Positions 1-32,616 of a stretch of DNA of 36,382 nt are shown in pieces. Location of the stretch: positions 1-36,382 of the forward strand of contig JAEERC010000026.1 of assembly GCA_016285645.1 (NCBI GenBank), in the 5' to 3' direction. Made by a program: the position numbers and the translations under genes. Every line of letters begins with the position of its first letter. Position 1 is the first letter of the stretch. This stretch comes from Clostridiaceae bacterium (lineage in GTDB: Bacteria > Bacillota > Clostridia > Oscillospirales > Acutalibacteraceae). The notes below the pieces were generated by a model. The model did no database searches. It had not been told where the DNA came from and saw only the letters and a program-made list of their open reading frames with translations.

Positions 1-390
1 AAGGCGGTTCTCACAATCACAACTCCCGCGAACATAGTAAAGGTCACAATCGGTGACACTGAAATAACGGAATACACCGAAACCGAAAACGGCAGACAGT
101 TCATATTTGAAACAACACCCGAATCGGCAGGCGTGTTCAGGTATTCGGTAATACTCACGGAAACCTTCGGCTATTCGAGCGCGAACGGAACAACACCGGG
201 CATCACGGTCAAAGTTCCCGCAGCTGATGAACCCGACACTCCCGAAAACCCGGAGAACCCCGAAAATCCCGACAACCCAGGCACAGATGACGAACCCGAA
301 AAGGAACTGAACTTCTTCGAAAAACTCGTAAAGTTCTTTACGGAACTTTTCGCGAAGGTAATCAACATTTTCAAAAAGGCGGTGAACTGA
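1..390 (+). CDS. C-terminal end of an exported/surface protein (5' truncated by window edge)
   Basis: The reading frame is open from base 1, so this is the tail of a larger protein. About 75 visible residues look like a beta-rich domain (alternating Thr/Val/Glu strands). A Pro-Glu-Asn repeat linker (PENPENPENPDNP) and a Glu/Lys stretch follow. The last ~27 residues form an amphipathic Phe/Leu/Ile-Lys helix (NFFEKLVKFFTELF, then AKVINIFKKAVN). A linker plus amphipathic tail suggests a secreted or wall-associated protein; the signal peptide would lie outside the window. The stop is one base before the next ATG, so the two genes are probably co-transcribed. The function of the main domain cannot be told. 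The tail resembles those of four other exported proteins in this window. Confidence 0.75.
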   Translation, partial: KAVLTITTPANIVKVTIGDTEITEYTETENGRQFIFETTPESAGVFRYSVILTETFGYSSANGTTPGITVKVPAADEPDTPENPENPENPDNPGTDDEPEKELNFFEKLVKFFTELFAKVINIFKKAVN

Positions 391-391
391 A

Positions 392-631
392 ATGGCAAAA
401 CTGAATTACACAAAACCGGCGTTTGCCTTTCATCAGATACCGCTGGTGACGGGCGGCGGCACGGGCTGCTCCTATAACTGGGAAGCGACCAATGAGAACT
501 GCACGGTAACCGATCCCGACCTTGGAATGACAATTTTCACAGATAAAAATATCTCCTGCGAAATACAGGGCGACCCCTCGGATTTCTGCTACACGGTTCC
601 CATGGCGGACCACAACATTTACAATTCATAA
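392..631 (+). CDS. Candidate RiPP precursor peptide, 79 aa, four cysteines
   Basis: A small protein with ribosome site AGGCGGTG seven bases before ATG. The N-terminal part (KLNYTKPAFAFHQIPL) reads like a leader. A Gly-rich turn (GGGTG) follows, then a polar C-terminal part with Cys26, Cys37, Cys56 and Cys66, ending FCYTVPMADHNIYNS. There is no signal peptide or membrane segment. An intrinsic terminator follows directly, and beyond it lie a P-loop kinase-like protein, a radical SAM/SPASM enzyme and a PqqD-like protein. That set is typical of peptide-modification loci, so a role as the modified substrate is inferred from size, Cys content and context. It could instead be a small unmodified secreted peptide. 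The modification (for example thioether links at the Cys residues) is unknown. Confidence 0.7.
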   Translation: MAKLNYTKPAFAFHQIPLVTGGGTGCSYNWEATNENCTVTDPDLGMTIFTDKNISCEIQGDPSDFCYTVPMADHNIYNS

Positions 632-634
632 ATT

Positions 635-667
635 AACATCCCTGCTCCGTGGGGCAGGGATGTTTTT
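635..667 (+). terminator. Intrinsic terminator or attenuator after the precursor gene
   Basis: A perfect 11-bp stem (AACATCCCTGC at 635-645 with its complement at 654-664), an 8-base loop, and a run of T at 663-667. It lies four bases after the precursor stop and 18 bases before the start of the next gene in the same direction. Partial read-through would give much precursor and less of the modification proteins, an arrangement known from many RiPP operons. Confidence 0.85.
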
Positions 668-684
668 GCCACAGTGAGGGTGCT

Positions 685-1383
685 ATGAAGAATAAAAAAA
701 TAATAATCGCCGTCGCCGCTCTGCTTATTGTTGCCGCTGCTGTAACGGCTGTTGTGATTCATTCAAAAAAGAATAACACCGACACTTTTCCGACAACCTC
801 AGCGCAGACGGCAGCGGAGAAAGCCGCGGTTGAAACCGGCTTTGTTCTCGCGCCCGGTCTCAACGCCTCCGATCTGTTTGCGTACAGCGGCGAATTTGTT
901 GAGGACGGCAGCAACGAGGCGGTTGAAAATATTGCCGCGGTCATGATCAGAAACACGGGCAAAACGGATTACGAATACATTGAATTCACCCTTAAAACCG
1001 AAAAAAATGAATATTCCTTCAAGGCAAGTTCCGTGCTTGCGGGTACTGTAACAACGGTGCTCTGCAAAGATAAAAAGGCGTTTGACGGCGACGGAAAAGT
1101 CGCCTCCGGCGAACTGACACTTGAGAGCGAATACGCCGCCGCGCCCTCGCTTCGCGATGACCTGTTCAAACTCTATCTGCAGGACGGTACGCTGAATATT
1201 CAGAACATTTCGGGAAAAGACCTCGACGGCAGTATTGTTGTCTATTACAAAGGCGCCGATGAAAACGGCTTTTTCGGCGGCATCACATACAGAATGACGA
1301 TTGAAGGCCTTAAAAAGGATTCAATAGCGCAAAGGCATTCCGAACACATAGGCGAAGTGGTGAATATAACTTATGGTGAGTAA
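685..1383 (+). CDS. Membrane-anchored extracellular protein of the RiPP-like locus, 232 aa
   Basis: The start is the ATG at 685, preceded by GTGAGGG. A GTG at 649 would read through the terminator hairpin and is unlikely. Residues 1-25 hold a Lys-rich N terminus and one strong membrane helix (IIIAVAALLIVAAAVTAVVI). A Thr/Ala-rich linker follows, then about 170 residues rich in beta strands, including NISGKDLDGSIVVYYK and FGGITYRMTI, which look like a beta-sandwich domain outside the membrane. The last 11 bases overlap the kinase-like gene, so the two are translationally coupled. No enzymatic motif is seen. A role in holding, sensing or exporting the peptide product is inference only. Confidence 0.75.
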   Translation: MKNKKIIIAVAALLIVAAAVTAVVIHSKKNNTDTFPTTSAQTAAEKAAVETGFVLAPGLNASDLFAYSGEFVEDGSNEAVENIAAVMIRNTGKTDYEYIEFTLKTEKNEYSFKASSVLAGTVTTVLCKDKKAFDGDGKVASGELTLESEYAAAPSLRDDLFKLYLQDGTLNIQNISGKDLDGSIVVYYKGADENGFFGGITYRMTIEGLKKDSIAQRHSEHIGEVVNITYGE

Positions 1384-2206
1384 GTATTATTCTCTCGCGG
1401 GGCTTATACTCCGTGTTGACAGCGAAACACCCATAGAAAACAGCGACCGCTTTGAAGAGTTTTACGCTCCTCAGGGCAGTGCCGATATAACCGTAACCGT
1501 CGTAAACGGAAAACTTCCGCAAAAAAGCGGTGAGCCGCTTTACAAGAGTCTCGGGCGCGAAACATATTCGGAAAACGGCTGCATTAAACTGTATTCCTCA
1601 TATTACAGACCCGATTACTGGACGGATTACGCCTGCCGCGAAACGGTTGACGGGCGCGTAACGCTCTGTATTGACTACGAGCAGGGGATTTGGGATTCAA
1701 TGCTTTTCAACGCCCTCAACATCCCCGGAATCCTCGCTCAAAAAGGTGTTTTCCTTCTCCACAGTTCCTTTGTCATCCATAACGGCGAAGCGCTGATTTT
1801 CTCGGGTGAAAAGGGCGCGGGCAAGTCAACACAGGCGGCGCTCTGGAACAGCCGCTTCGGCGATGTAATCGTAAACGGCGACCGCTCGCTTCTCAAATTC
1901 GAAAACGGCGTTCTCACGGCGTACGGCACGCCGTACTGCGGCTCTTCGAGAATAGCACTTAATAAATACGCCCCCGTCAGAGCGATTGTTATGCTTGACA
2001 AGGGCGATAAAAACATAATTGAAAAACTGAGCGGAATCGAAGCATTCGGTAAGATATCCGCCCAGTTGAGTTACGAAAAAAACCAAACCGGAATCCTTTC
2101 GGATTTCGTGTCCCGAATCTGCGGGCAGACCGATATTTACAATATGAAATGTCTGCCCGATATATCCGCCGTGACGGCGCTTGAGGAGATATTATGGCAG
2201 GTATGA
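1373..2206 (+). CDS. HPr-kinase-like P-loop protein of the RiPP-like locus, 277 aa
   Basis: Residues 130-175 hold the HprK-like core. LLHSSFV precedes a Walker A motif, GEKGAGKST (145-153), and NGDRSLL (168-174) occupies the place of the acidic metal-binding motif. The N-terminal ~110 residues are divergent. HprK-like proteins without the HPr-docking region are often encoded beside PqqD-like proteins and radical SAM enzymes in peptide-modification loci, where their biochemical role is often unclear. It overlaps the genes on both sides (11 and 13 bases), so it belongs to one tightly coupled operon. The position usually holding two acidic residues reads Gly-Asp here, so catalytic competence is uncertain. 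It is unlikely to be the true HPr kinase, because no PTS gene is nearby. Confidence 0.8.
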   Translation: MVSKYYSLAGLILRVDSETPIENSDRFEEFYAPQGSADITVTVVNGKLPQKSGEPLYKSLGRETYSENGCIKLYSSYYRPDYWTDYACRETVDGRVTLCIDYEQGIWDSMLFNALNIPGILAQKGVFLLHSSFVIHNGEALIFSGEKGAGKSTQAALWNSRFGDVIVNGDRSLLKFENGVLTAYGTPYCGSSRIALNKYAPVRAIVMLDKGDKNIIEKLSGIEAFGKISAQLSYEKNQTGILSDFVSRICGQTDIYNMKCLPDISAVTALEEILWQV

Positions 2207-3321
2207 AGGAATCCTCCGAGCCTCTGATTGTGCGCTATCTGCACATGAAGGCAGAAAAAAACAGAATACCTCTGGGCGTTACGTTCGAGCTGACCTCACG
2301 TTGTAATTTCAGTTGCAGAATGTGCTATGTACACAGCACCGACTGCAACATTAACAAGCCCCTTGAACTGAGCGCGGGGCAGTGGATTGAAATCGCGCAG
2401 AAGGCGAAGGAAGCCGGCTCCCTGTTTTTGCTGATTACCGGCGGCGAGCCGCTCGTGCGCGATGATTTCGCCGAAATTTATGAGGCGATAGCTAAAATGG
2501 GTTTTGTCATTTCCGTAAACACGAACGGTTCGCTGATTGATGAAAAAATACTCGACCTCTTTACAAAATACCGCCCGAACAGGGTGAATGTCTCGCTCTA
2601 CGGCGCGGACGGCGAAACTTATAAAAAACTCTGCGGCGCGGACGCGTTCGAAAAAGTTACAGGAAATATTATGAAGCTCCGCGAGCGCTCAATTCCCGTA
2701 AAGATAAACTCGAGCATCACGCCCTATAACATAGACGACCTTGATAAGATGATTGATTTCTGCCTTGAAAAATCACTGGTCTTCAAGGCCACGGGCTATA
2801 TGTTCCCCGCCGTCAGATGCCAAAAAGAGTGCGGCGAAAAACTCACCCCGTCTCAGATAGCAGCCGTCAGGGCTTATCTTGACAAAAGACTGCTGAGCGA
2901 TGAGGACTATGCCGACCGTGTGCGCAGAATCAAAGCGGGAATAAGGGCTGAGGAAAACCCCGACTGCCCGGTTGATGATTCCGATTTCGGAAAAATCCGC
3001 TGCCGCGCGGGCAGAACGAGCGCGTGGATTGACTGGCGAGGTAACATGAGCTACTGCGGAATGATTCCCGCTGACGAAGACTGCAATGTGCTTACTAAGG
3101 GCTTCAACGAGTGCTGGGATGAGGTTTCGAAAAAGGCGTCGGCAGTCAGAATGCCCTCAAAATGCGCTGTATGTAAATACAGGCACATCTGCTTTTTATG
3201 CGCCGCCTCGCAGTTTTGCGAAAAAGGCGATTTTGCAGAGCCGCCTCAATATATCTGCGACACGGCTGCGTGTATGTGCGGGGAGTACGAAAAACTTCTT
3301 AATAAAACCGAAGAAGGGTGA
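2194..3321 (+). CDS. Radical SAM/SPASM peptide-modifying enzyme, 375 aa
   Basis: The radical SAM cluster motif is C37-x3-C41-x2-C44, followed by the SAM-binding TGGEP (82-86). The C-terminal part is a SPASM domain: C270-x12-G283-x4-C288, then C324-x2-C327-x5-C333-x2-C336, and further cysteines at 342, 355, 360 and 362, enough for auxiliary [4Fe-4S] clusters. In this family (PqqE, AlbA, ranthipeptide/sactipeptide maturases) the enzyme makes C-C or thioether links on a ribosomal peptide. Here the likely substrate is the 79-aa peptide at 392. GAGGAG lies 5 bases before ATG, and the gene overlaps the kinase-like gene by 13 bases. The PqqD-like partner is encoded directly downstream. Anaerobic sulfatase-maturase identity is less likely, since no sulfatase is present. 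Confidence 0.9.
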   Translation: MAGMKESSEPLIVRYLHMKAEKNRIPLGVTFELTSRCNFSCRMCYVHSTDCNINKPLELSAGQWIEIAQKAKEAGSLFLLITGGEPLVRDDFAEIYEAIAKMGFVISVNTNGSLIDEKILDLFTKYRPNRVNVSLYGADGETYKKLCGADAFEKVTGNIMKLRERSIPVKINSSITPYNIDDLDKMIDFCLEKSLVFKATGYMFPAVRCQKECGEKLTPSQIAAVRAYLDKRLLSDEDYADRVRRIKAGIRAEENPDCPVDDSDFGKIRCRAGRTSAWIDWRGNMSYCGMIPADEDCNVLTKGFNECWDEVSKKASAVRMPSKCAVCKYRHICFLCAASQFCEKGDFAEPPQYICDTAACMCGEYEKLLNKTEEG

Positions 3322-3326
3322 AAAGT

Positions 3327-3593
3327 ATGAAACTCAATTATGAATTTGTTATGCGTGAAATAGCGGGCGAAAAATTCCTTGTGCCGATAGGGCAGGCGGC
3401 GTCCGTGTTTGACGGAATAATCACCGTAAACGATATAGGCGCCTTCATTTTTGAAAGCATACCGCTCTGCGAAAGCGCCGGGGAAATAGCGGACAGAATA
3501 GTTGAAGCCTATGATATCGACCGCGAAACAGCATTGAGCGATGTAAACGAGTTCCTTACATCCCTTTCCGAAGCGGGAATAAAAACCGAATAA
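3327..3593 (+). CDS. PqqD-like peptide chaperone (RiPP recognition element), 88 aa
   Basis: The length and pattern fit PqqD. Early beta strands (YEFVMREIAGEKFLVPIG) are followed by the NDIGAFIFE segment, matching the 'N-x-x-G-x-x-I/L-W' hallmark with Phe/Ile in place of Trp. Two helices follow (AGEIADRIVEAYDID, ETALSDVNEFLTSL). PqqD-type domains bind the precursor leader and present it to the radical SAM enzyme. The ATG at 3327 is used because AGGGTG ends seven bases upstream; a GTG at 3318 is poorly placed. It is the last gene of the cluster, ending at a strong terminator. No peptidase or exporter follows, so those would have to lie left of the window or elsewhere. Confidence 0.85.
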   Translation: MKLNYEFVMREIAGEKFLVPIGQAASVFDGIITVNDIGAFIFESIPLCESAGEIADRIVEAYDIDRETALSDVNEFLTSLSEAGIKTE

Positions 3594-18720: not shown

Positions 18721-19956
18721 ATGAAAAAGATTTTTTGTGTTGTTTTCGCAGTTATATTCGCTCTTATGAGTTTCTCCGCCACCGTCTTCGCGGACAGCGC
18801 CGAGGGCTCCGTGCTTAAATTCAGTCAGGACGGCAAGTTCAGAATCGTTCACCTGACAGATGTGCAGGATGTTTATCCTCTCAACGCCACCACCAAGGAG
18901 TTCATTAAGGAAATGCTCGCTCAGTTAAAGCCCGATCTCATTGTTCTGGGCGGCGACAACTGCGTGGCTGACGCCGAGCATAAAGAGGCAGCTATTGAAG
19001 AACTCTGCTCGCTCTTTGTTGAAAACGAAACTTATTTTACCCTCGTTTTCGGCAATCACGACCACCAGCAGCACTTTGAAAGCCAGGAGGACAAAACCGG
19101 TCAGAGCGAGGGCATCCGCGAATATCTTTTAGGGCTCTATCAGCAGTACGGCGGCGATTACTGCCTCGCTTATGACGCCGAACCCGCTCTCACGGGTGTG
19201 GGTACCCACAATCTCACCATAGCGGCGAGCAACTCCGACAAGCCCGCTTTCAATCTCTATATGATGGATTCAAACGCCTACTATCCCAACGAAAACGAGG
19301 ACAAGGGCTACGACGGCGTTCATACCGACGAAATCGAATGGTATAAAAACAAGGCAGCCGAATTAAAAGAGGCAAACGGCGGTGAATGCGTGCCCGCAAT
19401 GATGTTCCAGCACATTGTCGTTCAGGAGGCTTATGACGCCCTCTTCATTGAATCCCCCTCGTCAATGGGCGATATGACCGCCACATTTGAGGACATTGAC
19501 GGCAACGAAAAATACTACACCTATCTTCCCAAGGTCGGCGGTATCAAGGAGGGCTTTATGCTCGAGCATCCCTGCCCGAACTACCGCGATTACGGTCAGT
19601 TCACCGCTCTTGTTGAAACCGGCGATGTTATGGCAATCTTCTCCGGCCACGACCATGTCAACAACTACACGCTAAACATTGAAGGCATAGATGTAGTCAA
19701 TTCGGCGGGCTGCACCTTCCACTCCTACGGCGACCATATGAACAGGGGAGTGCGTGTTATTGATCTCGATGAAAAAGACCTTTCAACCTACAGCACCTTC
19801 ACCTACACACTCGCCGAGCAGGCGCTCAAGGAAGGATCAACCCTCACCACTCTCGGCGATATCAGTAAGGCGGACGCGGTTTTCGCAGTTATCGGCTCAA
19901 AACTTCTCGCCGTTCTGATGAAGGTTCTTTCGGCGGTATTCTTCTTTGTAAAATAA
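18721..19956 (+). CDS. Exported calcineurin-like metallophosphoesterase with hydrophobic C-terminal tail, 411 aa
   Basis: A signal peptide (KKIFCVVFAVIFALMSF, cut near VFA-DS) precedes the catalytic domain. Metal motifs are VHLTDVQD (Gln where His is usual in DxH), LGGDN, FGNHDHQ, MFQHIV and FSGHDHVN, so the site is of the purple-acid/Icc type. The last ~25 residues (VIGSKLLAVLMKVLSAVFFFVK) are strongly hydrophobic and may hold the protein to the membrane. It probably hydrolyses extracellular phosphoesters. GGGGAG lies before ATG. It is followed by a lipoprotein gene. The substrate is unknown. Confidence 0.9.
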   Translation: MKKIFCVVFAVIFALMSFSATVFADSAEGSVLKFSQDGKFRIVHLTDVQDVYPLNATTKEFIKEMLAQLKPDLIVLGGDNCVADAEHKEAAIEELCSLFVENETYFTLVFGNHDHQQHFESQEDKTGQSEGIREYLLGLYQQYGGDYCLAYDAEPALTGVGTHNLTIAASNSDKPAFNLYMMDSNAYYPNENEDKGYDGVHTDEIEWYKNKAAELKEANGGECVPAMMFQHIVVQEAYDALFIESPSSMGDMTATFEDIDGNEKYYTYLPKVGGIKEGFMLEHPCPNYRDYGQFTALVETGDVMAIFSGHDHVNNYTLNIEGIDVVNSAGCTFHSYGDHMNRGVRVIDLDEKDLSTYSTFTYTLAEQALKEGSTLTTLGDISKADAVFAVIGSKLLAVLMKVLSAVFFFVK

Positions 19957-19981
19957 TCAAATCTGATTGCGGAGACAGAAA

Positions 19982-20635
19982 ATGAAAAAAGCATTTGCCA
20001 TTATTATCGCTCTTGCCCTGTTTCTCCTTTCATCCTGTTCGGGCGGCGGCTCGGCGGACGCGGAGTCAAGGTCAATTATCGAAGCGACCCGGTATGAAAA
20101 AATGCTCTCGTTTGAGGGCGGCTTTATGGTGTCCTATATAGTTCGGGATTTGCAGAACACCGAAGCGTCCTGCAACGGCAAAATAAACGCCAGATTAAGC
20201 GGCGACACAGTCGAGTTCAACCATCTTGTCGATTACACCAACAAGACCTTCTCGCACACCTATTATTCGAATTCGCCCGATGACGACAACATCTACACTC
20301 TCACCGAAGAGGGCTCAACCGTTTCGGGCGGGGCGAAAAGCGCGATCGGCAACCTGCTCAAGGAATCCCTTTTCGGCTATGAACTCTACAAAGTTGTCAC
20401 AACCGAAATAAGTGAGGACGGCACCGTCTATAATCTGGAACTCTACGACCCCGATACGGACGAGCTTGCCGGCAAGGATATTCTCACCGTTGAAAAAACG
20501 GATTCGGGCCTTAAGGTGACCCACGCCGAATGCAGACGCTTTGACGGCGATGAGATGATACTCGGCGAAAGCTTCACGATTGACTATTACAGCAATGTGA
20601 AAATGGACTACACGCCGAAAACTCAAAGCAAATAA
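19982..20635 (+). CDS. Putative lipoprotein of unknown function, 217 aa
   Basis: The lipobox-type signal (AIIIALALFLLSSC followed by SGGG) predicts cleavage before Cys20 and lipid attachment. The mature part is about 195 residues, beta-rich and polar, without an enzymatic motif. A phrase such as LVDYTNKTFSHTYYS alternates like a beta-barrel or lipocalin-like sheet. The ATG at 19982 has GGAGA six bases upstream; the TTG at 19967 is not used. It follows the phosphoesterase by 25 bases and is closed by a GC-rich hairpin. Confidence 0.8.
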   Translation: MKKAFAIIIALALFLLSSCSGGGSADAESRSIIEATRYEKMLSFEGGFMVSYIVRDLQNTEASCNGKINARLSGDTVEFNHLVDYTNKTFSHTYYSNSPDDDNIYTLTEEGSTVSGGAKSAIGNLLKESLFGYELYKVVTTEISEDGTVYNLELYDPDTDELAGKDILTVEKTDSGLKVTHAECRRFDGDEMILGESFTIDYYSNVKMDYTPKTQSK

Positions 20636-20641
20636 CAATTC

Positions 20642-20664
20642 TGCCCGCCTCAGGCGGGCATTTT
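20642..20664 (+). terminator. Short intrinsic terminator after the lipoprotein gene
   Basis: GCCCGCC (20643-20649) pairs with 20653-20659 across a 3-base loop, with TTTT after it. The hairpin is strong but the T-run short, and the next gene starts about 20 bases on, so read-through is likely. Confidence 0.65.
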
Positions 20665-20681
20665 GATAAAGGATGGTTCTT

Positions 20682-22700
20682 TTGAAAAAAACTGTCTGCG
20701 CTCTGCTTGCCGTATTATTGTTTTTGCCGACGGTTTCGGTCTCTTCATCGGCGAAAAGCGGCGTGAAAAAAACAGTAAAAGTCTATGACAATATGAGTTA
20801 TCACTTTGCCGACTTAAACGGCGGCAGGGTGGATATTCCTATATCTTCGAGTAAACCCGGCAGAAAAACCGCAAGCAAAAACTCACTGCCCGATTCGTTC
20901 GACAGCCGCGATTACGGCTGTATTACGCCGGTGAAGGACCAGGGCAACACGGGCCTCTGCTGGGCGATGGCGGCGGTCGGCGCGCTGGAAGCGGACTGTG
21001 TCAAAAAGGGCTTCACGACTCTCGAAAATACAGATTTTTCCGAGGCGCACCTCGCGTGGGCGGCTTACACTCAATCGGGAATTGACATTGATGTAAACTC
21101 GGGCGAGAGCGTAAAGATTACGGACAACGATCCCTTTGACTCGGGCGGCTTTGACGACTACGCCGTAGGCGCTCTTGTGAAGGGCTGCGGAATAGCGGAT
21201 GAAAAGGATTTCCCGCTGAATATCGACGACACCTCCCTTATGGGCAATTATCCTCCCTACAGTTACTATACCGACAACGGTCTTGTAATCGGCGAAGCGG
21301 TAAAGCTTGACGGGGATATGGACGCCGTGAAGGAGTGGATAAGCGCTCACGGCGCCGTGACAATGAGTTATTTCGCTTCAACGGGCGGCTATTACAGGGA
21401 ATATGAACTGCCCGGCGGCGAAAGGGCTGTTTCCTATTATTACGGCAGCGCCTCCTTCGGGGCGGATCACATAGTCACCGTCATCGGCTGGGACGACAAT
21501 TTCTCAAAGGAATATTTCAGACGCACTCCCTCAACAGACGGCGCCTGGCTTGTAAAGGGCTCATACGGTGAGAACTTCGGTGTTGACGGCTATTACTGGG
21601 TGTCCTACTGCGAGCCGTCAATTGTCGATTTTTACGGCTACAGCGTAAAGCAAAAGGATTACGATTATATCTACACATATAACGGAGCGCCCTACGAAAC
21701 GGCTCTTGAAATAAACGGGTCGCCGAGCGCGACATACGCGGAAATATTTGAAATAAACACCGATGAAAACCTGCTCGAAGCGGGAGTTTATACCGTGAAC
21801 AATAACACGGATATAAGCGTAACCGTTTATGAAATGCCTGCCGGCGCCGACTCTCCCTCGCAGGGTGAGGAGATTGCCCGCACAAACTCGGCAGCGGCTG
21901 TTCAGGGCTGGCACCGCGTGGCTTTTGACACGCCCGTGACCCTTTCGGCTGATGGTGCATATTGTGTGAGAGTCACAGTCACCGCTTACTCGGGCGCGGC
22001 GTATATCCCGCTCGAAAACAGCGGCAGCGCGAGATTCAATTACACCTCATCACCGGGCAGAAGCTTTTATATTGATGAAAACGGGGAGTGGGCGGATTCA
22101 TATTCCCTCGGCGGCGATGCCTTTATAAACATCTATACCGCCTGCCGCCACACACCCGCTTACAGAAAGGACTGTTCCGCGCCATCCTGTACACAGAGCG
22201 GCTACTCGGGCGATCTGTTCTGCCCCGATTGCGAAAAAACACTTGCCTCGGGTGAAATAATTCCGCCTTCACATACCGATATTCAGGGTGACGGAATCTG
22301 CGATTTGTGCGGCGCTGTTGACGAAGCGGCACACAACGCGTATCTGCTGAATTCGGCGGTTATCACCGTTCCCGAAGGGAAAAACATCCGTTACGGCTTC
22401 AGGGCTTCAATCACAGCGAAGGTAAGCGTTCTGCCCGACGGTTATTATATACGCTGGTTCAGCGGCGACACTCCTCTGGGGGAGAAGGGCAAAACAGAAT
22501 GCACCCTTGTCACCGACCCTCTTGAAGCGGACGGAACCTTCACTGTGAAAATAACGGATTCGGCGGGCAATCCGGTTGACACGGCAAACTCCGGAAAATC
22601 CGTAACAATCAGCGTTGACAGCGGCTTTTTCGCGAGATTCATCTCATTTATTCTGCTCATATTCGCCCGAATTTCGGGGAAAGATATAATTGAAATATAA
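20682..22700 (+). CDS. Secreted papain-family (C1) cysteine peptidase with lectin-like and C-terminal domains, 672 aa
   Basis: A signal peptide (KKTVCALLAVLLFLPTVSV) is followed by the C1 domain. Gln of the oxyanion hole and Cys93 lie in VKDQGNTGLCWAM, and His263 in GADHIVTVIGWDD. The third catalytic position, usually Asn in KNSWG, is Gly293 here (LVKGSYGENFG). Residues ~330-490 resemble the lectin-like domain that follows bacterial C1 peptidases. Next come a Cys-pair segment (CPDCEKT, CDLCGAVD), an Ig-like strand region and a hydrophobic tail (FFARFISFILLIFARI). The TTG at 20682 is chosen because AAAGGATGG lies at proper distance; an ATG at 20673 lies inside that ribosome site. Activity may be reduced or altered. 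Confidence 0.88.
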   Translation: MKKTVCALLAVLLFLPTVSVSSSAKSGVKKTVKVYDNMSYHFADLNGGRVDIPISSSKPGRKTASKNSLPDSFDSRDYGCITPVKDQGNTGLCWAMAAVGALEADCVKKGFTTLENTDFSEAHLAWAAYTQSGIDIDVNSGESVKITDNDPFDSGGFDDYAVGALVKGCGIADEKDFPLNIDDTSLMGNYPPYSYYTDNGLVIGEAVKLDGDMDAVKEWISAHGAVTMSYFASTGGYYREYELPGGERAVSYYYGSASFGADHIVTVIGWDDNFSKEYFRRTPSTDGAWLVKGSYGENFGVDGYYWVSYCEPSIVDFYGYSVKQKDYDYIYTYNGAPYETALEINGSPSATYAEIFEINTDENLLEAGVYTVNNNTDISVTVYEMPAGADSPSQGEEIARTNSAAAVQGWHRVAFDTPVTLSADGAYCVRVTVTAYSGAAYIPLENSGSARFNYTSSPGRSFYIDENGEWADSYSLGGDAFINIYTACRHTPAYRKDCSAPSCTQSGYSGDLFCPDCEKTLASGEIIPPSHTDIQGDGICDLCGAVDEAAHNAYLLNSAVITVPEGKNIRYGFRASITAKVSVLPDGYYIRWFSGDTPLGEKGKTECTLVTDPLEADGTFTVKITDSAGNPVDTANSGKSVTISVDSGFFARFISFILLIFARISGKDIIEI

Positions 22701-25246: not shown

Positions 25247-25894
25247 TTGAAAAGGTTTTTTAAAAGATTTATTGCTGTCGCGCTCTGCGTGACGATGCTT
25301 CTGTGCCCGCTCGCGTTAAACGCGTCCGCAACAAACAAAACAAGCGATGAGGCAATCAACTGGGTAAAATCAAACCTCGGAGAAAGCTTCGGCGCGGGCT
25401 ACTGCGTTGATCTCATCTGCGCTTATTACAGTTATCTCGGTGAAACGGCGCCCTATATTCCCGCCTATATGTTCTCAACAATCTCCCTGCCCGCGGGCTG
25501 GACCCGCACACAGGGCGGTCATCCCCAGAAGGGCGACATCCTTGTTTTCACAAACGGCACAATGGGTCATGTGGCGATTTACGAGTCGGATTACTCGACC
25601 TATCACCAGAACTGGTCCGGCCAGCTTTTCGTAACCCACTACACGGGCTTATACAGCTGGAGAGATTACTGGGGCTGCATTCATCCGAATTTCGCCGATT
25701 CTTCATCGGGCGCGACGGTGACATCACCTGTTGACACCGGCTCAACCCAGACCACGACCTCGCAGACGGGCGAAAGCTCATCCGCCTCTTCCGGAACCGA
25801 TGTTTCGAGCATCATCTCCCTCGCGGTGAATTTCGCGGCAATCTGCATAAAAGCGCTGTCGCTCTTGATAAACATAATAGCATCATTCAGATAA
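25247..25894 (+). CDS. Secreted CHAP-domain amidase-like protein with hydrophobic tail, 215 aa
   Basis: TTG start with GACGGAGG six bases upstream. A signal peptide (FFKRFIAVALCVTMLLCPLAL, in part) ends near NASA. The CHAP-type domain has Cys in GAGYCVDLICAYY and His in GTMGHVAIYES, with HPQKGDILVF between them. A Ser/Thr-rich linker of about 40 residues leads to a hydrophobic tail (IISLAVNFAAICIKALSLLI). CHAP enzymes cut peptidoglycan stem peptides or cross-bridges. The protein could act in wall remodelling. It is a single-gene unit between its own promoter and terminator. Which bond is cut is unknown. Confidence 0.85.
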   Translation: MKRFFKRFIAVALCVTMLLCPLALNASATNKTSDEAINWVKSNLGESFGAGYCVDLICAYYSYLGETAPYIPAYMFSTISLPAGWTRTQGGHPQKGDILVFTNGTMGHVAIYESDYSTYHQNWSGQLFVTHYTGLYSWRDYWGCIHPNFADSSSGATVTSPVDTGSTQTTTSQTGESSSASSGTDVSSIISLAVNFAAICIKALSLLINIIASFR

Positions 25895-25900
25895 AACTTG

Positions 25901-25934
25901 ACGGACATTCTCATTTCGGGAATGTCCGTTTTTA
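25901..25934 (+). terminator. Intrinsic terminator after the CHAP gene
   Basis: ACGGACATTC (25901-25910) pairs with GAATGTCCGT (25920-25929); T-run after the stem. Confidence 0.88.
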
Positions 25935-25984
25935 TAATATGAACCGCTCTTTGATAAAACACCCGAATAAATCTTTTAAAGACC

Positions 25985-26013
25985 TTGCCCGGGTGTAAAA
26001 TATTTGCTATAAT
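25985..26013 (+). promoter_or_regulatory. Promoter of the secreted phosphodiesterase gene
   Basis: TTGCCC (25985-25990), a 17-bp spacer and perfect TATAAT (26008-26013) with an upstream TG (extended -10). Confidence 0.75.
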
Positions 26014-26053
26014 AAAACCGATCTTTTGTAAAACAGATAAGGAGACAAACAGA

Positions 26054-27109
26054 ATGAGAAAAACAATTTCACTGCTTCTTGCCGCCGCTATGGTTATTTG
26101 CTGCGCTCTTCCCGTTTTTGCCGCGGACACTCAGAAGTCCGGTTTCGGTGAGTACGAGCACGTTTTCATTATAGGGGTTGACGGCGCGGGCGCCGCTTTT
26201 GGGCAGGTTGAATCGCCCAATTTTGACCGCATCTTCGCCGACAACGCCTACATCCACAACGCCCATACGGAATATATCACCACCAGTGCGCAGAACTGGG
26301 GCTCTATTCTTCTCGGCGTTGACTACGAAACACACGGTATGACAAACGGCTCCACCGAGGAGAACCGCCACACCTCGCAGGATGAATACCACAGCATTTT
26401 CTATTACGCCCGTCAGGCAATGCCCGACGCCAGACTCGTTTCAATCTGCCACTGGCCGAACATCAACTACGGCATTATTGAAAACGATATAGATGTCAAA
26501 AAGGTCAACCGTTTTACGGACACCCTTGTTGTTGACGAGATTCTCAACAACATTTCCGGCTCCGCTCCCGAGCTTATGTTTGTTCAGCTCGATGAGGTTG
26601 ACCACGCCGCGCACACCTACGGCGGCTTCAGCGACGAGTATTACGAAGCCGTAAGAACAGCCGACAAGCGCCTGGGCACGATTTATGACGCGCTTGAAAG
26701 CAAAGGACTTATGGAAAACAGTCTGTTTATTGTTGTTGCCGACCACGGCGAAACAGAGAACGGTCACGGCGGTCAGACAGTGGAGGAGAGTTCAGCCGTT
26801 CTTGCCGTCGCGGGCAAATCCGTAAACAAGGGGCTGATTGTGGACAGCGCCCACAACCGCGATGTTTCAGCCATCGCCCTTTACGCTCTCGGCGTTGAGC
26901 AGCCCGAGGTGTTCATTACCTCGGTGCCCGAAGGGCTTTTCGGCGAAGCGCGTGAAAAGACCGTTGAAAAAAATCCGATTTCCGATTCCGACAAACTTCT
27001 CGACACACTCGCCTTCCCGTTCATAAGACTGTTCAATCTGATTATGCCGGCGTTTGCCTTCATTTATGATATCTATTATCACGACGGTATCTTCGCTATG
27101 TTCAAATAA
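26054..27109 (+). CDS. Exported alkaline-phosphatase-superfamily phosphodiesterase with hydrophobic tail, 351 aa
   Basis: A signal peptide (KTISLLLAAAMVICCALPVFA) precedes the catalytic domain. Motifs: FIIGVDGAGAAF, nucleophile region ITTSAQNWGSILLG (Thr or Ser), QLDEVDHAAHTYGG, and VVADHGETENGHGG. The C terminus has a hydrophobic segment (LFNLIMPAFAFIYDI) for membrane retention. It is the extracellular relative of the cytosolic enzyme at 24240. The start is the ATG at 26054, with AAGGAGA upstream; longer N-terminal versions would lack a proper signal peptide. The function is probably extracellular phosphodiester hydrolysis. Confidence 0.88.
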   Translation: MRKTISLLLAAAMVICCALPVFAADTQKSGFGEYEHVFIIGVDGAGAAFGQVESPNFDRIFADNAYIHNAHTEYITTSAQNWGSILLGVDYETHGMTNGSTEENRHTSQDEYHSIFYYARQAMPDARLVSICHWPNINYGIIENDIDVKKVNRFTDTLVVDEILNNISGSAPELMFVQLDEVDHAAHTYGGFSDEYYEAVRTADKRLGTIYDALESKGLMENSLFIVVADHGETENGHGGQTVEESSAVLAVAGKSVNKGLIVDSAHNRDVSAIALYALGVEQPEVFITSVPEGLFGEAREKTVEKNPISDSDKLLDTLAFPFIRLFNLIMPAFAFIYDIYYHDGIFAMFK

Positions 27110-27161: not shown

Positions 27162-28154
27162 TTACTCATCCTCCTCAACAAGTCCGAGTGAGTAGAGCGT
27201 CTCGTCCGAATAACCGAACGGCATCGCGGTTTTTATAACGTCTTTAAGCTGCAGAATAAAATACGAGTTCGCGAAAAGGTCGGCGTTTATTTCGCCGAGC
27301 AGAAACAGGGAAACAAGGCGGATGATTTCGAGTTTTCTGTCAAAGCCGCCTTTATAATATTCCATATCCATATAATTCCCGAATGTTTCGCTGAAAAGAA
27401 AACCCCCGGGGTCAAGGGTGCAGCCGTAAATGTCCATATCCCAGCTGTCATAGTACTCAATGCTCCTTTTGTTGTGCCTTTTGTAATCCGCGTTTATTAC
27501 AACCGTCGGACCAAGCGTGTGCTCCGTGTCGGCTTCGTCCAACGCCGGAATATACACTATGTCGCCTTTTTTAAACGGAACGGGAAAATCGCAGAAAAGA
27601 TTATTGAAGGCAAGTTCAATATCACACTCCTCTTCATCCTCAAGGCAGAGAACCCAGTAAGAGGAATAAACCGGTTCAAAATCACCGTTCAGCAGTATTT
27701 CCGGGCCAAACCGTTCTGCAAACCGCTTTTTCACAACCTTGTAAAACTGCGGAGGGTCATCGTCTTGTTTATAATAATTTTTAATCTCATCCATTGAGCC
27801 GAAAACAAGCAGGTTTGCCTCATCGTCATAGAAACGCCCTTCACAGTATTCCTGCACAACATAGATGCTCTGAGCGTCGCTCTCGTAAAACCCGGCAATA
27901 AAGCGTAAAAGTATATCCGAATAATCCTTCAGGAAGGCGTGAAGCGAATCATACTGAGTCTGCCGGTCTATCCGCGGTATTTTCATATCCGGCATAGTCC
28001 GCGCTATCTCACGCCACGCCTCAATCTGCTCATTTAAAGTTGCTTTTTTTGAATTGTAAACAAGCCACGCCGCACCGAGCGAATCGGGCGTGTAGCCGAT
28101 TTCCTGCCAGTATTCATATACCGCCCGTGAATTGATGAATCTTTTTAAATCCAC
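27162..28154 (-). CDS. Unrecognised 330-aa protein, paralogue of the gene at 35276
   Basis: I do not recognise the family. It is clearly homologous along its length to the 339-aa protein at 35276: both begin with a [YR]EYWxEI-x-Y-xP segment and AAWLVY. They share SLHAFL[KR]DY, FPVPFKKGD near residue ~200, and a FGN[YI]MD[MF]E[FY] motif towards the end. The middle is acidic and rich in aromatic residues, with no membrane segment, so it is probably cytosolic. The start is GTG at 28154, with AAAGGAG six bases upstream. It lies four bases after the SLOG gene on the same strand, so the two form a unit. The paralogous pair frames the island on opposite strands. Confidence 0.75.
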   Translation of the reverse strand: MDLKRFINSRAVYEYWQEIGYTPDSLGAAWLVYNSKKATLNEQIEAWREIARTMPDMKIPRIDRQTQYDSLHAFLKDYSDILLRFIAGFYESDAQSIYVVQEYCEGRFYDDEANLLVFGSMDEIKNYYKQDDDPPQFYKVVKKRFAERFGPEILLNGDFEPVYSSYWVLCLEDEEECDIELAFNNLFCDFPVPFKKGDIVYIPALDEADTEHTLGPTVVINADYKRHNKRSIEYYDSWDMDIYGCTLDPGGFLFSETFGNYMDMEYYKGGFDRKLEIIRLVSLFLLGEINADLFANSYFILQLKDVIKTAMPFGYSDETLYSLGLVEEDE

Positions 28155-28158
28155 ATTA

Positions 28159-28545
28159 TCACTCCTTTGTTTTCTTTTGATAATCAATTATTATTACATT
28201 GATATTCAGGCCTTTTGCCTTGTCGATTGTGTCCTTTGTTCCGTGGCTCTCGCCGTCCCAGAAGGCGACGACCGCCGGAGTTTCCTCAAGGGCGTAATCT
28301 ATCATCTGCGAATTGCGCATAAACCCCGCCCTTATGGGATGTTTCTTCCAGTCCGCGGGAAAGACGGCGCAGGGGATGCCGTTTTCACCGGCGTATCTCT
28401 CGCCCAGCAGATCCGCGCCCTTCGCGTGGCCGGATACAATTTCAACATCCTCATAATTTTTAATTATTTCGTCAAGCGATTTTTTCATGAGGGCGTAATC
28501 GTCAAAATCCCTTCCGCCCGCGACTATAATTCTTGTTTTGCCCAT
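28159..28545 (-). CDS. DUF2493/SLOG-family nucleotide-binding protein, 128 aa
   Basis: Rossmannoid SLOG (YpsA/YspA-like, DUF2493) motifs: IIVAGGRDFDDY at the N terminus, VSGHAKGADLLGE, FPADWKKHP, MRNSQMIDYA, and AFWDGESHGTKDTI. The full domain is present and nothing else. SLOG proteins bind nucleotides or their derivatives, and some are predicted to make or sense signalling molecules in conflict systems. The ATG at 28545 is used, with AAAGGTG upstream; a GTG at 28557 overlaps it. It is divergent from the PPP phosphatase gene, and downstream of it is the 330-aa protein. It is the most canonical of the three SLOG copies in this window. Confidence 0.88.
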   Translation of the reverse strand: MGKTRIIVAGGRDFDDYALMKKSLDEIIKNYEDVEIVSGHAKGADLLGERYAGENGIPCAVFPADWKKHPIRAGFMRNSQMIDYALEETPAVVAFWDGESHGTKDTIDKAKGLNINVIIIDYQKKTKE

Positions 28546-28575
28546 AAAAATCAGCACCTTTCTTTATTGTTTTCA

Positions 28576-28604
28576 ATTCAATAATACTATAAGGTATGTG
28601 TCAA
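28576..28604 (-). promoter_or_regulatory. Possible promoter of the minus-strand SLOG pair
   Basis: On the minus strand a perfect TTGACA (28599-28604), 17 bp and TTGAAT (28576-28581). The -35 overlaps one copy of a repeated 14-base element. Confidence 0.5.
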
Positions 28605-28615
28605 AAACGGCACAT
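28602..28615. repeat. Copy 1 of a 14-bp direct repeat in the divergent SLOG/phosphatase control region
   Basis: CAAAAACGGCACAT here matches CAAAAACGGGACAT at 28670-28683 at 13 of 14 positions. One copy touches each side of the divergent promoters, so a shared regulator site is possible. Confidence 0.45.
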
Positions 28616-28669
28616 GCTTTTCTTTTTTTGTGAATATCACGAAATTTTTTTGGAATTCGGCGAATGGGA

Positions 28670-28683
28670 CAAAAACGGGACAT
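28670..28683. repeat. Copy 2 of the 14-bp direct repeat
   Basis: CAAAAACGGGACAT, located just before the -10 box of the phosphatase gene, where the -35 box would be. Two GGGACA units (28666 and 28677) are 11 bp apart in the same place. Confidence 0.45.
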
Positions 28684-28692
28684 CCGGTGATA

Positions 28693-28698
28693 TATAAT
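28693..28698 (+). promoter_or_regulatory. -10 box of the PPP phosphatase operon
   Basis: Perfect TATAAT, but no recognisable -35 at 16-18 bp. The repeats just upstream may bind an activator. Confidence 0.5.
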
Positions 28699-28746
28699 GC
28701 AGATGAAAGATAAAGGCACCCGAAAAAAACGAAAGGAGCGAAAGCA

Positions 28747-29460
28747 ATGATTTATGTATGCTCGGATCTGCACGGATATCCGCTGACCGCATTTAAAGAA
28801 CTTCTGAAAAGCGTGGGATTCACAAAGAACGACACGCTTTATATTCTCGGCGATGTGATTGACCGCCGCGGCGACGGCGGCGTGGAGATGCTCAGTTGGA
28901 TAATACGGCAGAAGAATGTGAAAATGATAATGGGCAACCACGAGCGAATGCTGCTTGACTGCAAGGGCATTTTCGATAAAAGCCGCGGTCTTCGTATGGA
29001 CGATGTGCTCGCCCTTGACGATTATCTTTATAACGGCGGAGCGGTCACAATCGAAACCCTCGAAAAACTCAGGGAAAAGGATTCCGGTGAGTTCACGCAC
29101 ATTATGGGTTATCTTGAAAAACTGCCCTGTTATGACGAAACCGAAGTGAACGGCAGAAAGTTCGTGTTTGTTCACGGCGGGCTTGAGGATTTCAAAAGCC
29201 ACAGAAGACTTTATGATTATGACGGTTACGACCTTTTGTGGAGCAGACCCGAAATGACCGACGAATACTTCAAAACCAAAACCGTCATTCTCGGCCACAC
29301 TCCGACTTCCCTTTACGGTGAAGAATACAGGGGCAGAATCATAATAACCCCCACCTGGATAAATATTGACACCGGCGCGGCTTACGGCGAAGGTCCCGCG
29401 CTGCTGCGGCTTGATGATATGGAAGTGTTTTACGGAGAAAAAACTTATGAAACAGACTGA
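28747..29460 (+). CDS. PPP-family metallophosphatase (PrpE/ApaH-like), 237 aa
   Basis: All PPP motifs are present: SDLHG (6-10), GDVIDRRGDGG (35-45), GNHE (63-66), VHGG (142-145) and GHTPT (183-187). The metal site is therefore complete. Such enzymes are serine/threonine protein phosphatases or Ap4A-type hydrolases. DVIDRRG instead of DVIDRGP is typical of the short bacterial PrpE-like group. GAAAGGAGCG lies before ATG. It is divergent from a SLOG gene and heads the plus-strand series of island genes, so it may remove a phosphate from a nucleotide signal or a partner protein. Which one cannot be told. Its last 14 bases overlap the next gene. Confidence 0.88.
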   Translation: MIYVCSDLHGYPLTAFKELLKSVGFTKNDTLYILGDVIDRRGDGGVEMLSWIIRQKNVKMIMGNHERMLLDCKGIFDKSRGLRMDDVLALDDYLYNGGAVTIETLEKLREKDSGEFTHIMGYLEKLPCYDETEVNGRKFVFVHGGLEDFKSHRRLYDYDGYDLLWSRPEMTDEYFKTKTVILGHTPTSLYGEEYRGRIIITPTWINIDTGAAYGEGPALLRLDDMEVFYGEKTYETD

Positions 29461-29785
29461 CGGCGTCTTCTGGCTTATCGGCGAAAAACTTTACGCCTTC
29501 CCTTTTGAGAAGGGAAAATATCCCGAAGCGTATGCCAAATCCGGCAGAACCTACAACCACGAAAAACTCTGGGATTATGTAAAGCCGAAGGGCTGCGGTA
29601 AGCCGTTTGATTATTATCCGCGGGGCAGGGCGGTTATAAAAAAGGACGGCACGGCAGTTATCTATATGAGCCCGCACATCCCCGAAAGCCATATTGAAGA
29701 GATAAAAAAAGCGTTCGGCACCGAAACGGAAACGGCAGTTAAATATGACAGAAGCAGACATTACAGATGCTTTTTAGATATGTGA
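29447..29785 (+). CDS. Small unrecognised protein, 112 aa
   Basis: Family not recognised. It begins MKQTDGVFWLIGEKLYAFPF and has a tight Gly/Pro/Tyr motif in the middle (GCGKPFDYYPRGRAVIKK), then AVIYMSPHI and a basic end. There is no signal or membrane segment. GGAG lies nine bases before the ATG at 29447, inside the end of the phosphatase gene in another frame, so translation is coupled. A longer start at 29366 would lie wholly inside the phosphatase gene and is rejected. Size and coupling suggest a partner of the phosphatase; a DNA- or RNA-binding role from the basic residues would be guesswork. Confidence 0.75.
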   Translation: MKQTDGVFWLIGEKLYAFPFEKGKYPEAYAKSGRTYNHEKLWDYVKPKGCGKPFDYYPRGRAVIKKDGTAVIYMSPHIPESHIEEIKKAFGTETETAVKYDRSRHYRCFLDM

Positions 29786-29800
29786 AAAAAGGTGAACAAT

Positions 29801-30694
29801 ATGAAAGAATACTTAAAAAACAAAAATGAATACTTTGAAGACGGAAAGCTTTATATTGAGGCAATAAAAAAATGTGAGTGCAGTGAAAAAAGATACAGCA
29901 CATATTTTATTGACTGCAGCATACATCAAAGGGGAGTAAGAACCTATACATACAAAAAAGGCGCGGAATTTATTGAAAAAGATGACTGTTCCGGCAAAAA
30001 GCTCTGGCTTTGTCAGAAAGCCATGCAGGCGGTAAAAGAAGCCGTATCCGCATTTGATGAAGCTGTTGAACAGGCGAAAACCGGAGATTATGAAAAAATT
30101 GAAATAAAAGATATTGATTATGTTGTTTATATTGAAAAACCGATTGCAGACAAAGGCAGGATTGTTAAAGAATCCGACTGCGGCGGAATCACCGAAATAA
30201 GTACCGGCGGAATCTTCGGCGCAATGAGCGGCTTTTATTACCGCGGAAAAAGCGACCGTAAGAGCAACAGAATGTTTGAAATTTGCAGCCGCCCCAACGA
30301 AGAAACCATCAAAGAGAACCCGTTTTACCTTGCCGCGCTTAGAACGGGAGACGAGCTCCTGGCTCTTGAAATAAAACTGCATTACAATGTTGCCGCCGCG
30401 CAGGACTGCAGACGCCTTACGGAGCTTACGGGCAAAAGGGTTCTGCCGAAACTCCCGGAAAAATACAACAGGCGGTATGCCGTAACCAAAGACAGCGTCT
30501 CATACGAATTACTGGGTAATTCGGGCTACGGGCTCGGGCACTGGCCGTGCTTCGCAATGATGAACCGCACATATAAAAATATTACTCTGAACCCGCACAC
30601 AAGAACGGGAGGCGACTCAGCTCCCGCTGACGAAGAGCCGATTACATTTGACGAATTCTTAAAACTGTTTGAGGAGGCGGAAAACAATGAGTGA
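29801..30694 (+). CDS. Unrecognised 297-aa island protein (family A); ends in an acidic 'ITFDEFLKLFEE' tail
   Basis: Not recognised. It is mostly helical and rich in Lys/Glu in the first 100 residues, with the Cys-containing segments KKCECSEKRYSTYF and FIDCSIHQRG. It then has a Gly-rich centre (DCGGITEISTGGIFGAMSGF) and a conserved-looking end (HWPCFAMMNRTYKN, then ITFDEFLKLFEE). There is no signal peptide. The ATG at 29801 has AAAAAGGTG six bases upstream. It overlaps the next gene by eight bases. The last 90 bases reappear at 32125-32214 as a gene fragment, so a second copy once stood there. It is lower in GC than genes left of 27 kb, as seen by eye. Confidence 0.75.
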   Translation: MKEYLKNKNEYFEDGKLYIEAIKKCECSEKRYSTYFIDCSIHQRGVRTYTYKKGAEFIEKDDCSGKKLWLCQKAMQAVKEAVSAFDEAVEQAKTGDYEKIEIKDIDYVVYIEKPIADKGRIVKESDCGGITEISTGGIFGAMSGFYYRGKSDRKSNRMFEICSRPNEETIKENPFYLAALRTGDELLALEIKLHYNVAAAQDCRRLTELTGKRVLPKLPEKYNRRYAVTKDSVSYELLGNSGYGLGHWPCFAMMNRTYKNITLNPHTRTGGDSAPADEEPITFDEFLKLFEEAENNE

Positions 30695-31616: not shown

Positions 31617-31625
31617 GGTGTGATA

Positions 31626-32153
31626 ATGAAAAATAAAACGAAGGGCAACGGCACTTTCAAAATAATAATCTGCGGCGGCAGACATTTTGACGATTACGAA
31701 TATCTCAAAGCGTCCTGCGATTCCGTCATTTCACAAATAGGAACGGATAAGGGGATTGAAATAGTCAGCGGTCACTGTAAGGGCTGCGATATGCTCAGCG
31801 AAAAATACGCGGAAGAGCGCGGATATAAACTTACCGTATTTCCCGCCGAATGGAAAAAATACGGCAAATCCGCGGGCATAAAAAGGAATATCCGGATGAT
31901 TGAGTATATCGAAGTTCCCGACAGCGCGGTTATTGCCTTCGTCAGCGAGAACACCAAGGGCACAAGGTTCACAGTAAAAGAAGCGGAGAGAAACGGAATT
32001 GCCACCTATGTTTTTGAGTATATGCCCGGCAAAAAGGAAAAGGCATCGGTAAGGGAGATTACCGACAGCGAGTATGAAAGCATTGTTGACAAGGCGTTTT
32101 CCTCCGCGGCTATGAAAATATCAGCTGAACCCCCATACAAAAACCGGAGTTGA
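31626..32153 (+). CDS. DUF2493/SLOG protein, truncated C terminus, 175 aa
   Basis: SLOG motifs: IIICGGRHFDDYEYL, VSGHCKGCDMLSEKYA, FPAEWKKYGKSAG, and NTKGTRFTVKEAE. It is nearly identical to residues 9-160 of the protein at 33871 (roughly nine amino-acid differences by eye). Just after that shared part the frame runs into a fragment of a different gene, giving a short false tail (ISAEPPYKNRS) and a stop at 32151. The SLOG domain itself is complete, so the protein may still fold and bind its ligand. GAGGTG lies five bases before the ATG at 31626. It belongs with the family B gene directly upstream. Confidence 0.87.
   Translation: MKNKTKGNGTFKIIICGGRHFDDYEYLKASCDSVISQIGTDKGIEIVSGHCKGCDMLSEKYAEERGYKLTVFPAEWKKYGKSAGIKRNIRMIEYIEVPDSAVIAFVSENTKGTRFTVKEAERNGIATYVFEYMPGKKEKASVREITDSEYESIVDKAFSSAAMKISAEPPYKNRS
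31661..32118 (+). repeat. Copy 1 of a 458-bp duplicated SLOG segment
   Basis: It matches 33894-34351 without length difference at about 94% identity by eye, with mostly third-position changes. It starts at the first strand of the SLOG domain and ends at CCTCCGCGGCTATGAAAA, after which the two loci have nothing in common. Confidence 0.9.
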
Positions 32154-32220: not shown

Positions 32221-32223
32221 ATT

Positions 32224-32583: not shown

Positions 32584-32616
32584 AGAAAACCATAAACAAT
32601 AACGGAGGAATTGATT

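Follow-up and report, generated by a model that had tools for sequence, protein, structure and literature searches.

A candidate peptide-maturation unit with a kinase-fold protein and a SPASM enzyme encoded beside giant secreted proteins in Clostridia

In quinohemoprotein amine dehydrogenase, the radical S-adenosylmethionine (rSAM) enzyme QhpD introduces cross-links into a small, Cys-bearing subunit, which remains associated with larger exported proteins, and the SynChlorMet cassette combines an HprK-like protein with a SPASM rSAM enzyme. As far as the available parts of the cited reports go, QhpD-type links are Cys-Asp and Cys-Glu thioethers (PMC8326336), HPr-type kinases of lasso peptides recognize a C-terminal Ser (PMC8498205), sugars can be attached to the Ser phosphate of the lasso peptide pseudomycoidin (PMC8498205), and a YxxPxL leader motif is tied to the PqqD-like B1 protein of lasso systems (PMC10368454). 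Here, we analyze a stretch of 36,382 nucleotides from a Clostridiaceae genome (contig JAEERC010000026.1; hereafter the window) in which a gene for a 79-residue, four-Cys peptide lies between the 3’ end of a gene for a giant secreted protein and genes for a membrane-anchored protein, an HprK-like protein, a SPASM rSAM enzyme and a PqqD-like protein.

We consider it fairly probable that this locus encodes a new maturation unit of the type that acts on ribosomally synthesized and post-translationally modified peptides (RiPPs), made up of a RiPP recognition element (RRE), a C-terminal Ser kinase and a SPASM enzyme, and that its product serves giant surface proteins as a dedicated partner. The gene set recurs in several orders, the peptide has conserved features, the giant gene adjoins the peptide gene, and copies without enzymes occur in genomes with the kinase elsewhere. 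To our knowledge, the tie of such a peptide to giant surface proteins has no close precedent, the nearest being the small subunit of quinohemoprotein amine dehydrogenase. A first-pass annotation of the window had supposed that the product class might be new, and the open-access literature indeed yielded no description of this gene combination (subscription journals were mostly outside the search).

The locus shares with the kinase-bearing lasso systems (paeninodin, ThcoK, SyanK and pseudomycoidin) a putative discrete PqqD-like RRE, a YxxPx-hydrophobic leader, an HPr-kinase homologue and a C-terminal Ser on the precursor, and it differs from them by its SPASM rSAM enzyme, its three to five Cys residues, an NGD motif in place of DD, and the adjacent giant genes. 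Lasso membership was rejected, as the transglutaminase-fold leader peptidase of those systems (B2, PF13471) was not found in the window’s own genome (2.63 Mb, 97.9% complete, with the window as contig C40). Sactipeptides and ranthipeptides/SCIFF likewise pair a SPASM rSAM enzyme with a Cys-bearing peptide; in contrast to these, the present set includes a kinase, does not show the SCIFF pattern and has no NCBIfam precursor match. A small Cys-bearing candidate rSAM substrate paired with a larger exported protein is reminiscent of quinohemoprotein amine dehydrogenase, but the present giant is a surface protein of modular build, carrying GH, lectin or Cna_B domains, and a kinase is present. SynChlorMet has the HprK-like protein beside a SPASM rSAM enzyme, unlike it the window has one rSAM gene, and membership was rejected on scores of 11.1 against 125 bits for ScmC, 98.9 against 400 for ScmE and 62.1 against 400 for ScmF. 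Since the YxxP leader matches a PqqD-like RRE, the terminal Ser an HPr-type kinase, and the Cys-bearing middle a SPASM enzyme, the system resembles a lasso kinase system at the peptide’s ends and, between them, a SPASM RiPP, without being a demonstrated member of either. The features of the locus, in window coordinates, are as follows.

1–390, plus strand: 3’ end of the gene for the giant secreted protein, truncated at the contig start and encoding the end of an Ig-like repeat and an amphipathic C-terminal tail, FFEKLVKFFTELFAKVINIFKKAVN (open reading frame (ORF); similarity to the giants of relatives).
392–631, plus strand: precursor-like peptide of 79 aa with four Cys and a C-terminal Ser (ORF, homologues, alignment).
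407–424, plus strand: leader motif Y6-T-K-P9-A-F11 (YxxPx-hydrophobic), of the type read by lasso B1/PqqD-type RREs (alignment A3; YxxPxL as given in the available part of PMC10368454).
467–589, plus strand: span of the four Cys codons, at 467–469, 500–502, 557–559 and 587–589 (ORF, alignment).
626–628, plus strand: codon of the C-terminal Ser79, the predicted phosphorylation site (the last residue is Ser in 48 of 49 peptides).
635–664, plus strand: hairpin 3’ of the peptide stop, a possible leaky terminator before the enzyme genes (folding, z −4.7).
685 (ATG)–1383, plus strand: membrane-anchored protein with an N-terminal hydrophobic stretch, a putative extracytoplasmic domain and no family name (ORF, family scans).
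1373–2206, plus strand: HPr-kinase/PEPCK-fold protein, a predicted peptide Ser kinase, with H130, GKST at 150–153 and NGD at 168–170 (alignment, AlphaFold model).
2194–3321, plus strand: radical SAM/SPASM enzyme (Radical_SAM PF04055, 2.9e-28; Cys alignment).
3327–3593, plus strand: PqqD-like discrete RRE, which would bind the leader (PF05402, 1.7e-13).

ORF calls and family matches bear out the five-gene set that the first-pass annotation had described around the four-Cys peptide, all on the plus strand; that annotation had overlooked the giant gene end and the hairpin. The giant gene ends one base ahead of the peptide start, the HprK-like ORF overlaps the membrane-anchored ORF by 11 nt, the rSAM ORF overlaps the HprK-like ORF by 13 nt, and a 5-nt gap separates the rSAM gene from the PqqD-like gene.

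The window peptide carries Cys residues at 26, 37, 56 and 66 and terminates in NIYNS. In keeping with the earlier view that it is not SCIFF-like, SCIFF/ranthipeptide identity was rejected for its four Cys residues, where six in 45 residues are needed. It has no match in the Pfam or NCBIfam precursor families; an NCBIfam precursor assignment was rejected because it rested on one stray match (0.047) in one of 32 members, and a PDB sequence search gave nothing useful (sole match E 1.1). The locus is beyond chance, with clear homologues that keep the Cys residues and the same neighbor genes. Across an alignment of 32 peptides, Y6, C26, C56, C66, Y67 and the C-terminal Ser are invariant, and K8, P9, C37 and P70 nearly so.

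A second peptide class (type II, ...YCKF..S...) sits behind giant proteins within kinase-rSAM loci and has another core than the first (type I) while both ends are the same. In a set of 49 peptides (39 type I and 10 type II, omitting the interrupted L071 as well as L077, L037 and L029, whose peptide is identical to that of L028), the Cys count runs from three to five per peptide; type II peptides have three Cys in nine of ten cases and four in one. A C-terminal Ser closes 48 of the 49 (38/39 type I, 10/10 type II), the exception, L114, ending in Ser-Tyr, and 44 end in aromatic-x-Ser. At the other end, YxxP falls within the first 16 residues in 47 (37/39 type I, 10/10 type II), with Ala replacing the Pro in L073 and L074, and the fuller YxxPx[ILVFMA] is found in 46 (36/39 and 10/10), its sixth position often being F or I, not L. 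One peptide gene, in genome G004 (L071, 7959–8093, minus strand), is broken by an in-frame stop; the giant, membrane-anchored, kinase, rSAM and PqqD genes are all there.

Peptide matches occur in 15 of 45 genomes of the genus, reduced to 14 by dropping G001 as chance (E 0.004, in a 1033-aa frame), and in 15 of 300 sampled genomes of the bacterial family, where G152 was likewise dropped as chance (E 0.003, in a 279-aa frame) and the remainder spans nine genera. The family is also found in three genera of another bacterial family. Four of the relatives are contigs of metagenome-assembled genomes (MAGs) of Clostridia from the gut of sheep, goat and water buffalo. A wider profile (A3) matched 6 of 295 genomes in the order, the window’s own included; among the other five, the four with neighborhoods examined were G945, G374 and G817, which are supported by their neighbors, and G794 (L118), rejected as resembling noise; the fifth is G733. 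With the first profile (A1), a class-wide search matched 1 of 391 genomes, the window’s own; this absence elsewhere says little, as A1 misses divergent members such as G374, which is in the class sample and was detected only by A3.

That the peptide is the substrate of the enzyme set, as the first-pass annotation had proposed, is very likely: the peptide’s ends and Cys residues are conserved, and the kinase follows its distribution. At a threshold of E <1e-90, picked after the scores were known, the kinase is present in 14/14 peptide genomes versus 1/31 others (Fisher 9e-11; the 45 genus genomes are related and not independent trials), the single exception being G004, with its interrupted peptide gene. 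At E 1e-60 the counts are 14/14 versus 6/31 (2e-7, again among related genomes). An rSAM gene is adjacent at 22 of 35 type I loci, so that the peptide’s homologues are not found mostly apart from a SPASM enzyme, a pattern that the annotation had named as the one to look for against its proposal. The remaining 13 comprise three cut by contig ends, one (L070) with the kinase only, and nine without enzymes in the available DNA (L027, with only 2.1 kb downstream, L029, L031, L032, L039, L065, L080, L081 and L095). These nine fall in seven genomes, all of which encode the family’s kinase elsewhere (in G036 at E 3e-64). The window’s own genome has a second giant-and-peptide copy without enzymes on contig C12, its peptide 90% identical to that of the window, and in G044 both peptides are in enzyme-less copies and the set of membrane-anchored, kinase, rSAM and PqqD genes is on another contig (L102).

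Type II loci hold the kinase, the rSAM enzyme and a giant in all ten cases. Outside the genus the genes are arranged as giant-membrane-anchored-PqqD-peptide-kinase-rSAM (L116), giant-peptide-kinase-rSAM (L117), kinase-peptide-giant with no rSAM gene seen (L114) and PqqD-membrane-anchored-peptide-kinase-rSAM-giant (L123). These varied orders argue for a functional set rather than a frozen gene order.

The end of the window’s giant is 97.5% identical to the piece preceding the second peptide copy (L026) and resembles the ends of the relatives’ giants, whose ORFs span 930–2896 aa, besides pieces shortened by contig ends. The giants share a module of ~490 aa, in which Pfam finds Big_9 and Cadherin_5, each in 3 of 16 members, and little else. 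A PDB sequence search with the module gave nothing useful, and a fold search was set aside as uninformative (beta-rich jelly-roll/bicupin and CBM-like matches, TM ~0.2). By contrast with this shared module, the N-termini vary between loci: a Pfam scan of seven giants found GH2 in L070 and L071, GH88 in L076, Cna_B in L072 and a ricin lectin in L075; there were also weak matches to a metallo-lactamase (again L075), PA14 (L041) and VWA (L132). No LPXTG motif was found among the last 129 residues of the window’s giant, the only giant inspected for it. The window’s own genome has four sortase matches, and PEP-CTERM/exosortase sorting was rejected, as a family search found no exosortase (PF09721) in that genome.

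Our count covers 41 peptide loci, of which 35 are type I (including the interrupted L071) and 6 type II, and leaves out the fragments L037 and L077, the chance loci L079 and L082, the duplicates L026, L035 and L046–L063, and the refetched L001–L025. A giant is directly upstream of the peptide at 34 of these, 25 recognized by the module and 9 by the tail alone, the window being among the latter. At 33 of the 34, the gap between the stop of the giant and the start of the peptide measures −7 to 27 nt, and in L065 it is 109 nt; the start codons assigned in L066 and L101 are uncertain. As for the remainder, fewer than 140 bases lie upstream in L033, L034, L043 and L081, too little to show a giant, and in L078 the giant is behind PqqD instead. 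Four more type II loci (L119, L120, L121 and L132) have a giant directly ahead of the peptide. With the giant module scored at E 1e-10 and the kinase at E 1e-60, 18 of the 45 genus genomes have both, 1 has the giant only, 2 have the kinase only and 24 have neither, uncorrected for kinship. A peptide usually encoded beside a giant secreted protein points to a role at the cell surface and not to an antibiotic, and we somewhat favor the view that the modified peptide and the giant are physical partners.

Two further arrangements of giants were seen. In L085 and L088–L093, no peptide was seen after the module-bearing giants, some of which stand in tandem (three in L089); their genomes encode the peptide elsewhere, and such giants might share it in trans. 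In L045, the ORF ahead of the peptide (300–1184) joins an unrelated N-terminus to the giant’s tail, probably a misassembly of the MAG.

The first-pass annotation had remarked that the HprK-like protein has no HPr context; the peptide’s conserved C-terminal Ser offers an explanation for this. Membership in the HprK-related kinase A/B families was rejected, the scores (TIGR04355 at 1.3e-5 and 24.5 bits, TIGR04352 at 18.3 bits) lying far under the curated cut-off of 200 bits, and a PDB sequence search gave nothing useful. The AlphaFold model (pLDDT 95.2) nonetheless establishes a kinase fold at the level of predicted structure: Foldseek ranked ATP-PEPCK best (3.2e-7), followed by HPr kinase/phosphatase (3.7e-6), and as modeled the protein matches the core of the HPr kinase/phosphatase-PEPCK fold with its P-loop. 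The TM-scores are modest (best against HPr kinase/phosphatase 0.55, by target length), and the match is therefore confined to the core. Across 24 sequences, H130, G150, K151, T153, N168, G169 and D170 are invariant.

Of the other enzymes, the rSAM protein keeps CxxxCxxC and seven SPASM Cys residues (ten cluster Cys) in 24/24 relatives, the best PDB match of its profile being SkfB (1.7e-25), and the PqqD-like protein scores 51.1 bits with PF05402 and 33.3 bits with the lasso model NF033530, below the latter’s cut-off of 70. Between peptide and enzymes, 26 of 32 loci have a stable hairpin by ViennaRNA in the 50 nt downstream of the peptide stop (thresholds: mfe under −9 and z under −1.5 versus shuffles), with sequences that differ between loci; a consensus scan did not list the window’s hairpin. 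By the T-run test applied, such a run follows in 8 of the 32, the window not among them. The hairpin may act as a leaky terminator that favors the peptide over the enzymes.

Taken together, we propose a model in which the adjoining genes yield a giant exoprotein and a small peptide, and perhaps less of the enzymes given the intervening hairpin. The PqqD-like RRE would bind the N-terminal YxxPx-hydrophobic leader, by analogy with lasso B1, and the SPASM enzyme would modify the Cys-bearing core, most likely with thioether links; on balance, Cys cross-links are probably made in the peptide. The kinase-fold protein is predicted to place a phosphate on the C-terminal Ser, which we judge likely, if less so given that the kinase BsfK has six important residues of which two are not kept. 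The modified peptide would then exit the cytoplasm and bind or join the giant at the cell surface, which for some species would mean a capsule or exopolysaccharide (EPS) setting. Such a system would combine lasso parts, a leader reader and a C-terminal Ser kinase, with a SPASM enzyme, and would tie them to giant surface proteins rather than to a free antibiotic. Should this be correct, RiPP chemistry would here serve to build the bacterial cell surface, and the HPr-kinase-like/PqqD/rSAM neighborhoods of uncultured Clostridia would be offered a role. The lasso model of RRE-Finder retrieves ~300 rSAM-associated ‘false positives’, according to the available part of its report (PMC7470986), and some of these may be such loci.

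Several observations weigh against this model. The chemistry and the physical link between peptide and giant are predictions, and the window’s own giant is incomplete, cut by the contig end. Peptides L039 and L064 have no giant despite sufficient DNA, L113 and L115 carry a peptide but no giant (L115 no enzyme either), and no peptide follows eight module-bearing giants, which come from G000, G014 and G027; a ninth, L091, shows none within the mere 105 nt of DNA behind it. Of the 10 type II loci, only 3 were seen to have PqqD. The kinase-rSAM loci L122 and L124–L127 show neither a recognized peptide nor a giant and probably represent additional variants that act on other substrates. Neither an exporter nor a leader peptidase came to light, the only search aimed at one being that for the lasso B2 family.

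The four giant-less peptides would suit a free RiPP, cleaved after modification and secreted as a bacteriocin or signal, with the giant a mere operon neighbor such as a co-expressed adhesin. An RRE, a SPASM enzyme and a small precursor are common RiPP logic, and the cores of copies within one genome vary (the two copies in the window’s genome have nonsynonymous differences at 8 of 79 codons and synonymous ones at 5). We regard a free product as unlikely, as a giant lies directly upstream at 34 of 41 loci, with varied N-terminal domains, as giant-and-peptide copies exist without enzymes, and as the type II units retain a giant in every case despite their different core. The free natural product implied by the first-pass annotation is unsupported as written, the peptide gene being usually paired with a giant gene.

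The second alternative concerns the Ser kinase. According to the available part of the report on BsfK (PMC10368454), H148, G163, K169, S170, D186 and D187 are important in that enzyme, which phosphorylates an internal Ser3, not a terminal residue. The HprK-like family retains the His, the P-loop GK, the Ser (replaced by Thr in L072) and the last Asp; the counterpart of D186, the first Asp of the DD pair, is Gly in 24/24 sequences, and the position of G163 is variable, with Gly, Ala or Ser. By analogy with BsfK’s internal target, then, the terminal phosphorylation site is not certain, and the protein could instead be an ATP-binding helper or act on another residue or protein, the terminal Ser then being the end by which export or the rSAM enzyme recognizes the peptide. 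We hold this to be rather improbable in view of the invariant H130, G150, K151, T153 and D170, the HPr kinase/PEPCK-type fold of the model, and the retention of the terminal Ser in both peptide classes, which have the kinase in common.

Capsule/EPS-type genes were found at 13 of 60 locus names, or 11 of 58 distinct loci; the names include giant-only loci and two chance loci, and four of the eleven match by construction, as the query proteins, spotted by eye, came from L080, L099, L064 and L070. Pfam typed queries from the first three as CpsB_CapC, Bact_surface_Ig-like, Wzz, UDP-GlcNAc 2-epimerase and Polysacc_synt_C, and the sugar genes of L070 were named by eye. In L080, the enzyme-less copy in the window’s own genome, CpsB, an Ig-like protein and Wzz come directly after the peptide. 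Among 20 later loci, five have EPS genes, three with giant and peptide (L116, L121 and L132) and two with neither (L125 and L126, where the kinase-rSAM pairs adjoin them). The other 47 of the 60 locus names, including the window, have no such gene, many on short contigs. These genes, and the sugar addition to Ser phosphate possible in pseudomycoidin (available part of PMC8498205), would fit a new attachment system of gut Clostridia, a counterpart of sortase or exosortase, in which the cross-linked, Ser-phosphorylated peptide is the joint that fixes giants to EPS or envelope and shared enzymes act in trans on several giant-and-peptide copies, a reading that we find distinctly unlikely given the many loci without EPS genes and the fact that no acceptor or transferase was identified.

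Elsewhere in the window, exported proteins encoded at 18721–22700 and 25247–27109, named by eye as a metallophosphatase, a C1-type protease, a CHAP protein and a phosphodiesterase-like protein, share a giant-like hydrophobic/amphipathic C-terminal tail of ~20–25 residues, which could be a general C-terminal anchor. At 27162–36295, the ORFs 27162–28187 (minus strand) and 35276–36295 (plus strand) resemble paralogues by eye, as do 28159–28557 (minus strand), 31620–32153 (plus strand) and part of 33748–35265 (plus strand).

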